Positions 9,688 to 10,554 of a DNA stretch of 64,000 nt are shown here, piece after piece. A program made the position numbers and the translations under genes. Location: contig CP075364.1 of the NCBI GenBank assembly GCA_019454105.1, forward strand, positions 623,362 to 687,361. The letters run 5' to 3'. The first letter of the stretch is position 1; every line of letters starts with the position of its first letter. Under the pieces are notes generated by a model. The model saw only the letters and a program-made list of their open reading frames with translations, did not search any database and was not told the origin of the DNA. Source of the DNA: Fimbriimonadaceae bacterium (GTDB lineage Bacteria > Armatimonadota > Fimbriimonadia > Fimbriimonadales > Fimbriimonadaceae).

Positions 9688-10554
9688 TTATCGGCCGACG
9701 ATGTCGCCCTTGGTGCTGGCGATCACGGCGAAGATCTCGCCTTGTTCCTTGGCAGGAACCTTGAAATCGTCCAGAACGCGCTTCAGGATAGCGGCGGTCG
9801 CGTCCCACTCCTTTTCGGAGATCATCAAGCCCTGATGGGAGGCCAACATTGACCGGCCCGTGTACTTGAACGGCCCGCCAGCCGCCTCGGCCAGCTGCTC
9901 GATAAGAAGGACCGAGATGCCCTCGGCCGTCACGCGGCCACTCGCCAGGGCCGCGACCACGCGCTCGTTGCCAGTGACAATAGGATCAGCCGCCAATTGT
10001 TTGACAAACTCTTCGACCACGGCGCTGATCGCTCCGACGCCGCCCAGCCTCGCATAGAGCGAGTCCTTTTTGGCGAACTTCTCCATCGTCTGCGGGGCCA
10101 TTGGTTTGGCCATCTTGGTGGCCTTCTCCAGCCAAGACCTCAGTTCCATTTGAGCCGACTTTGGGACCCCCGCCCGGTCCATCGCCTTCATGCGGTGCAT
10201 CCAAGCCCGGTTCGACTCCTCCTGGCTGAGGGCGAGCCATGCTTGAACTTGGGGGAGGCTTGGCGTCTGCTTGTTCTGCATCCCGCCTGTCTCGGCGGCG
10301 ATGGACTCGGTCACCAAGAACCGAAGGGCAGGGCGGCTGGCCGGGTTGAAGAGAGCCTTGAACCGGGGGTTCTTCATCAGCATCTCGTCGTTGGCCTCCA
10401 TCTCTTCGGCGTCCGCCACGAACGCCGCGATCTTGTGGATCCCACCAAGCCTGTCGAAAAGGGTGTCGTTCGCCTTCTCTTTCATGCCCGCGCCCATCTG
10501 GGCGAGGCCTGCCGAAGCGAGCATGGCGGTCAGGAAGAGTGATGTCGGTTTCAT
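9688..10554 (-). CDS. Exported tandem truncated-hemoglobin-like protein
   Basis: The 288-residue protein starts MKPTSLFLTAMLASAGLAQ, a signal peptide with a likely cleavage after AGLAQ. Residues 165-288 match group I truncated hemoglobin: SLYARLGGVGAISAVVEEF, then FKYTGRSMLASHQGL with the proximal histidine at 240, and a final helix ending KGDIV. Residues 31-150 repeat the same shape (TLFDRLGGIHKIAAFVADA, then a helix around SLPQVQAWLALSQ), but the proximal histidine is replaced, so this half probably binds no heme. The usual B10 tyrosine is Val184 in the second domain. Export and two unequal domains are unusual for this family. Heme binding in the second half is inferred, not shown. Confidence 0.72.
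   Translation of the reverse strand: MKPTSLFLTAMLASAGLAQMGAGMKEKANDTLFDRLGGIHKIAAFVADAEEMEANDEMLMKNPRFKALFNPASRPALRFLVTESIAAETGGMQNKQTPSLPQVQAWLALSQEESNRAWMHRMKAMDRAGVPKSAQMELRSWLEKATKMAKPMAPQTMEKFAKKDSLYARLGGVGAISAVVEEFVKQLAADPIVTGNERVVAALASGRVTAEGISVLLIEQLAEAAGGPFKYTGRSMLASHQGLMISEKEWDATAAILKRVLDDFKVPAKEQGEIFAVIASTKGDIVGR

Follow-up and report, generated by a model that had tools for sequence, protein, structure and literature searches.

A putatively exported tandem truncated globin from a Fimbriimonadaceae bacterium with one probably heme-competent domain and one that lacks the proximal histidine

A tandem globin gene with an export-type start

The window analysed here, a stretch of 64,000 nucleotides from a Fimbriimonadaceae bacterium, carries on its minus strand an ATG-initiated reading frame for a two-domain protein, with its halves referred to below as D1 and D2 (Table 1). 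Long open reading frames that overlap the gene in other frames or on the opposite strand were set aside in favour of this one, which is conserved across 12 genes. The N-terminus, MKPTSLFLTAMLASAGLA followed by QMGAG, contains a single Lys, an apolar segment and candidate AxA-type sites. An apolar export-type start was found in all 12 tandem proteins; these export calls were made by simple N-terminal rules, the same for every protein, and not by a dedicated signal-peptide predictor. On this basis the signal peptide claimed by the earlier, sequence-only reading is borne out as a signal-peptide-like start, and the mature protein is probably located in the periplasm.

Pfam returned Bac_globin as the sole family on the window protein, plus one sub-threshold Anticodon_1 row, and the window protein is the one PF01152 match in this genome. 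The AlphaFold model of the whole chain reached a pLDDT of 88.7 and a pTM of 0.84. Both truncated-globin-like halves of the earlier reading were recovered, D2 by Pfam and D1 by its score against a D2 profile together with its predicted fold.

Table 1. Features of the tandem globin gene (positions in the window)
Feature	Position	Strand	Basis
Whole gene, putatively exported tandem truncated globin, 288 aa	9688..10554	-	Frame conserved in 12 genes
Signal-peptide-like N-terminus, residues 1-18, cleavage point approximate	10501..10554	-	Simple rules; low pLDDT at residues 1-25
D1, residues 31-152, predicted globin fold without proximal His	10099..10464	-	Fold model, D2 profile, alignment
Glu53, B13 of D1, in Glu/Trp/Arg set	10396..10398	-	Alignment
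Gln104, proximal (F8) position of D1	10243..10245	-	Alignment
Trp118, G9 of D1 (label assumed), in Glu/Trp/Arg set	10201..10203	-	Alignment
Arg121, G12 of D1 (label assumed), in Glu/Trp/Arg set	10192..10194	-	Alignment
Linker, residues 153-164	10063..10098	-	Sits between two predicted domains
D2, probably heme-competent globin domain, residues 165-288	9691..10062	-	Pfam; structure match Z 18.6
Val184, B10 of D2	10003..10005	-	Alignment
Glu197, CD1 of D2, where an aromatic is usual	9964..9966	-	Alignment to S. benthica Tyr34
His240, proximal (F8) His of D2	9835..9837	-	His in 12/12 D2 domains

The second half has an apolar heme pocket

The Bac_globin match (PF01152) covers residues 165-285 (E = 4.2e-13) and scores 50 bits, above the cut-off of 21. 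When predicted models were aligned to PDB entries with VIA-align, TrHbN of Shewanella benthica, a TrHbN-2 globin (8ugz, 8tls, 8uzu), was the best structure match for both D1 and D2, the D2 model superposing on the heme-bound 8tls with Z 18.6 and an rmsd of 1.5 Å over 116 residues. Mycobacterium tuberculosis HbN (TrHbN-1), which carries Tyr at B10 and Gln at E11 (both also named in the titles of its mutants), shares the fold, the GG motifs and the proximal His with the window protein; D2 has Val and Leu at these two positions (the M. tuberculosis numbering and the G-helix labels are assumed). Elsewhere positions are named after the alignment to S. benthica TrHbN and the labels given in the available text of PMC11904497.

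Along the pocket D2 has Phe183 at B9, Val184 at B10, Leu187 at B13, Glu197 at CD1, Ile213 at E7, Leu216 at E10, Leu217 at E11, Gln220 at E14, His240 at F8 and Thr253 at G8, and the alignment thereby agrees with the proximal His and the B10 Val first read from the letters. His at F8, Gln at E14 and Leu at B13 occur in all 12 D2 domains; CD1 is Pro in five, Lys in five, Glu in one and Ser in one, and never aromatic. With His240 and a predicted truncated-globin fold both in place, the second half is not without a heme pocket and is probably heme-competent through this His.

As far as the consulted parts of PMC11904497 (section 4) and PMC4720485 describe it, TrHbN-2 globins have apolar residues at B10, E7 and E11, and low O2 affinity is expected of this pattern. 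D2 shows it in full (Val184, Ile213, Leu217), in common with S. benthica TrHbN, and by its pocket it appears to stand near TrHbN-2; a low O2 affinity is likewise probable. Val at B10, first taken as a departure, is thus a real substitution but an ordinary one, because apolar B10, E7 and E11 are the published TrHbN-2 pattern (PMC11904497, in the part available). The B10 Tyr described as usual for the family is so for the TrHbN-1 type, with Tyr in 8/8 Armatimonadota TrHbN-1 domains compared, but not for the single-domain relatives of the window protein (1/72). D2 departs from the TrHbN-2 preference for Phe at CD1, a preference that is not strict, S. benthica TrHbN having Tyr there. Judged from the alignment, the missing CD1 aromatic seems a more unusual trait of D2 than Val at B10, and together with the absence of a basic E10 it could weaken the hold on heme.

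The first half has a predicted globin fold without the heme ligand

On its own, D1 gave no Pfam match at E ≤ 10. Against a profile derived solely from the 12 D2 domains it nevertheless scores 41.3 bits, compared with 3.7 for the best of 200 shuffles, and two GG motifs (G37-G38, G90-G91) can be read in the sequence. Structure prediction, the check proposed with the earlier reading, also points to a globin-like first half: predicted alone, D1 folds as a truncated globin (pLDDT 89.0, pTM 0.82) and aligns with the truncated hemoglobin 8uzu at Z 14.8 and an rmsd of 2.5 Å over 115 residues.

At the pocket positions D1 has Ala49 (B9), Glu50 (B10), Glu53 (B13), Pro63 (CD1), Leu77 (E7), Leu80 (E10), Val81 (E11), Ser84 (E14), Gln104 (F8) and Ala117 (G8), confirming that the proximal His is lost. 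With a predicted 2/2 fold and no F8 His, D1 would be classed as a globin-fold pseudoglobin and not as a hemoglobin. Glu at B13, Trp at G9 and Arg at G12, at positions that were formerly apolar, occur together in 6/7 His-less D1 domains (the exception is G045) and in 0/97 comparison domains, namely 5 His-keeping D1, 12 D2, 72 single-domain relatives and 8 TrHbN-1 domains. Since B13, G9 and G12 line the distal side of the globin pocket, one may reasonably guess that Glu53 and Arg121 form a buried contact and that Trp118 occupies the former cavity.

The tandem form among truncated globins

Within the class, the window protein was matched in 22/113 genomes, 11 of which hold the tandem form (12 genes in total, all with two domains). 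Of the other 11, G002 has an unrelated frame of 381 aa and the rest have one short globin frame each. In the phylum 33/291 genomes match, and beyond the 11 tandem genomes the longest matching frame has 236 aa (G211) and one domain. A pattern-based scan of a collection of 84,980 species genomes gave 106 pattern matches, of which 86 were confirmed and 80 loci kept. Among these 80 are at least 8 tandem loci, all 8 in Armatimonadota, and at least 72 single-domain loci in Planctomycetota, Verrucomicrobiota, Acidobacteriota, Ignavibacteriota, Bacteroidota and others. Tandem forms may occur outside Armatimonadota as well.

Most single-domain relatives begin directly before the globin domain. Export is less special than the earlier reading supposed, since other export-type truncated globins exist. 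Four relatives from Ignavibacteria and Bacteroidota (L067, L073, L084, L099) have a signal-peptide-like start and the same pocket type as the window protein, from which they differ in having one domain, with the proximal His kept; six more (L120, L122, L126, L128, L131, L134) look lipoprotein-like by eye. Among the 72 single-domain relatives listed, B10 is Ile in 59, Val in 9, Tyr in 1 and another residue in 3, and CD1 is Pro in 59, Arg in 4, Phe in 4, Ser in 2, His in 1 and a gap in 2. The same set (L065-L136) has Phe at E7 in 58/72 and at G8 in 56/72. None of the 72 is among the 26 PDB sequences matched with the window protein as query.

The two tandem copies in genome G109 (L058, L059) are 87% identical in D1 and 96% in D2; each is close to the end of a contig and is followed by a similar gene, and they represent either a segment duplication or an assembly effect.

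Loss of heme ligation and remodelling of D1

Comparison of domain counts and ligands across related genomes, as the earlier reading had suggested, showed that the proximal His of D2 is present in all 12 tandem genes and that of D1 in five (G008, both G109 copies, G040 and G041). In the other seven D1 domains F8 is Asp (3), Glu (2), Gln (1) or Cys (1, in G034). Scores of D1 against the D2 profile range from 158 down to 17 bits, the five His-keepers having the five highest.

A 67-domain tree unites the 12 D1 domains in one group (98/93), and D2 as one group is weak (80/52); the tree was built without published TrHbN-2 sequences and with L136 and L041, which are S. benthica TrHbN-like by eye. The branching order of G109, then G008, is repeated in D1 and D2, with long D1 branches flagged, and this fits one early duplication. 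In a full-length tree, whose alignment includes the trait columns, the seven proteins without the D1 His cluster together (96/97), consistent with a single loss of that His; in a D2-only tree a single loss is neither shown nor rejected (p-AU 0.353).

D1 evolves faster than D2. Its identity is lower in 21/21 His-less pairs (means 39 versus 64%) and in 6/6 His-keeping pairs (44 versus 63%, one G109 copy used), and part of D1 may be drifting, given the His-less pairs. Six pairs were tried for dN/dS (NG86). For D1 the values were 0.12 (G109 copies), 0.16 (G018/G032, His-less, dS 1.6), 0.32 (G040/G041) and 0.14 (G000/G034, saturated at dS 4.0), and two further pairs gave no value; for D2 they were 0.03, 0.08, 0.12 and 0.22 in the same order, and 0.10 and 0.24 in the two pairs without a D1 value. 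Where measurable, the low values place D1 under purifying selection; dS itself was either high (1.6) or saturated in these pairs.

These data bear on whether D1 has become a functionless, decaying remnant of the duplication, leaving D2 as the only half that matters. Its lower conservation in every pair compared and the varying residue at F8 would suit such decay. However, the reading frame and fold of D1 persist, all 12 genes retain two domains, the Glu, Trp and Arg are fixed together in 6/7 His-less D1, and dN/dS is 0.16 in the sole His-less pair with a usable dS. We consider a relic unlikely; D1 looks like a maintained, remodelled pseudoglobin.

Genomic context of the tandem genes

In the window the gene is flanked by MutM and isopropylmalate dehydrogenase, to which there is no clear link; no heme-uptake gene adjoins it, nor does any neighbour at this genome's locus support a gas or redox role. 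The suggestion that the protein is a heme carrier found nothing in its favour beyond the export-type start.

Four of the 12 tandem genes, in G018, G019 and G032 of one genus and in G045 of another, are directly preceded by a PAS-GAF histidine kinase and an OmpR-type regulator. The sensor role proposed earlier gains a weak hint from this arrangement, which is not found in this genome. A specific version would have D2 bind gas outside the cytoplasm and D1 convey the resulting state to a partner in the membrane, coupled to the kinase and regulator. The upstream pairs in two genera agree with such a chain, and heme-free globin domains do signal in Bacillus RsbR (PMC4976288, in the part available). 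Yet the link is absent from 8/12 genes, including that of this genome, where the orthologous pair lies ~665 kb away; three of the four linked genes come from one genus; and no start-to-end route across the membrane is seen. Such a chain is improbable, and a two-component link as the main function was rejected, since the four cases fall in two genera and could reflect an inherited link. The orthologue of the globin-linked kinase in this genome (L143, G000:C1:1298369-1300411, followed by the OmpR-type regulator) has a frame that gives two partial-length matches to the query.

A proposed exported one-heme globin with a heme-free partner domain

We favour an exported one-heme, apolar-pocket gas or redox globin with a heme-free partner domain, at a probability of roughly 0.6. 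In this reading His240 of D2 would ligate heme, and none of B10, E7 and E11 in the distal pocket offers a hydrogen-bond donor; lacking one, D2 should hold O2 weakly, and it would meet NO, CO, O2 and peroxide outside the cytoplasm. D1 would stem from the same kind of domain, duplicated in tandem early in the ancestry of the class, when both halves were presumably heme-competent. In one lineage the proximal His of D1 would then have disappeared and the core of D1 been remodelled with polar side chains and a Trp, leaving a heme-free domain that may pack on D2 or dock another protein. The earlier idea of the first half as a structural or binding partner is thus supported and sharpened, with heme ligation lost within the family and new residues fixed; the partner role itself is a probable one.

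More tentatively, D1 could be a 2/2 globin that has taken on a regulatory or ligand-sensing role. Its emptied pocket, which Glu53, Trp118 and Arg121 would close or line, would then bind a non-heme ligand or relay the ligand state of the heme-bearing sister domain to an extracytoplasmic partner. The relatives would record the successive stages, from two heme-competent halves through a drifting D1 with its His kept and the loss of that His to a remodelled core.

We regard as very unlikely a two-heme protein, a carrier or scavenger of exported heme in which D1 binds heme by another ligand or an open site; the kept fold of D1, Cys at F8 in G034, the D1 His of five relatives and the export-type start would allow it, but F8 is Asp, Glu or Gln in 6/7 His-less D1, B13 Glu lies inside the old pocket in 6/7, and a heme-uptake gene was not found beside the window gene.

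D1 is also rich in Met. Pooled over the 12 proteins, D1 plus linker contains 118 Met in 1614 residues and D2 34 in 1491 (Fisher p 3e-11, from related sequences that are not independent); the window protein has 11/134 and 2/124, and its ten neighbouring ORFs 73/3720. That D1 serves as a periplasmic oxidant or copper sink beside a reactive D2 heme nevertheless seems very unlikely, as the Met positions are mostly not conserved, with one Met among the columns common to at least 6/7 His-less D1, and Met content does not follow heme loss. Met richness as a cause of that loss was rejected, the His-keeping D1 of G040 and G041 being equally Met-rich.

The favoured one-heme globin with its heme-free partner resembles several known systems in part. 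S. benthica TrHbN is a single domain with Tyr at CD1, where the second half of the window protein has Glu197. RsbR belongs to the sensor-globin (3/3) lineage. In Bacillus it is a cytoplasmic stressosome protein fused to STAS, with no heme-keeping sister domain in the chain, and in these respects it differs from the window protein; D1 shows no STAS match in Pfam. The non-heme globin domains of Bacillus RsbR, like D1, kept the fold after losing the heme-binding residues, whereas Vibrio RsbR, a relative, keeps heme (PMC4976288, as far as its available text goes); D1 may work like an RsbR-type non-heme globin without being one. The accessible description of S. benthica TrHbN mentions no signal sequence, and the window protein has a signal-peptide-like start. 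The available part of PMC11976967 describes exported proteins in which one or two truncated globin domains flank a multiheme cytochrome domain; the window protein lacks such a cytochrome part. A literature search on tandem or two-domain, Armatimonadetes, TrHbN-2 and exported or periplasmic truncated hemoglobins found no stand-alone exported tandem, a weak negative given mainly open-access coverage.

Heme-less globins are already known; here a heme-keeping sister shares the chain and intermediates exist in relatives, so that the steps from heme domain to heme-free partner become testable one by one. The family also adds a broad set of truncated globins without Tyr at B10 and mostly without an aromatic at CD1, positions used for function prediction.

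Neighbours of the single-domain relatives

A MOSC-family ORF adjoins the single-domain globin on the same strand in 14/80 loci (4 Acidobacteriota, 10 Verrucomicrobiota: L083, L085, L100, L101, L103, L105, L108, L109, L114, L116, L118, L121, L123, L127), directly downstream in 13 and directly upstream in 1. The one that was scanned, at L121, has MOSC_N and MOSC domains. We take these neighbours to be of the amidoxime-reducing type, and they may mark a nitrite or NO link of the single-domain relatives. For the window protein an NO link by this route was set aside, as no match to that MOSC protein was found in this genome, a weak negative.

In 6/80 loci, in Planctomycetota (L066, L068, L076, L081, L093, L104), the globin is preceded by an Rrf2-type regulator, at 27-91 bases in five and 881 in one. 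In the one Rrf2 protein read, that of L081, the usual three-Cys motif was absent by eye, and the neighbour was rejected as an NO sensor. In 14/80 loci, all from Verrucomicrobia (L083, L091, L100, L103, L106, L108, L113-L118, L123, L129), a SnoaL-like ORF lies 46-75 bases upstream of the globin.
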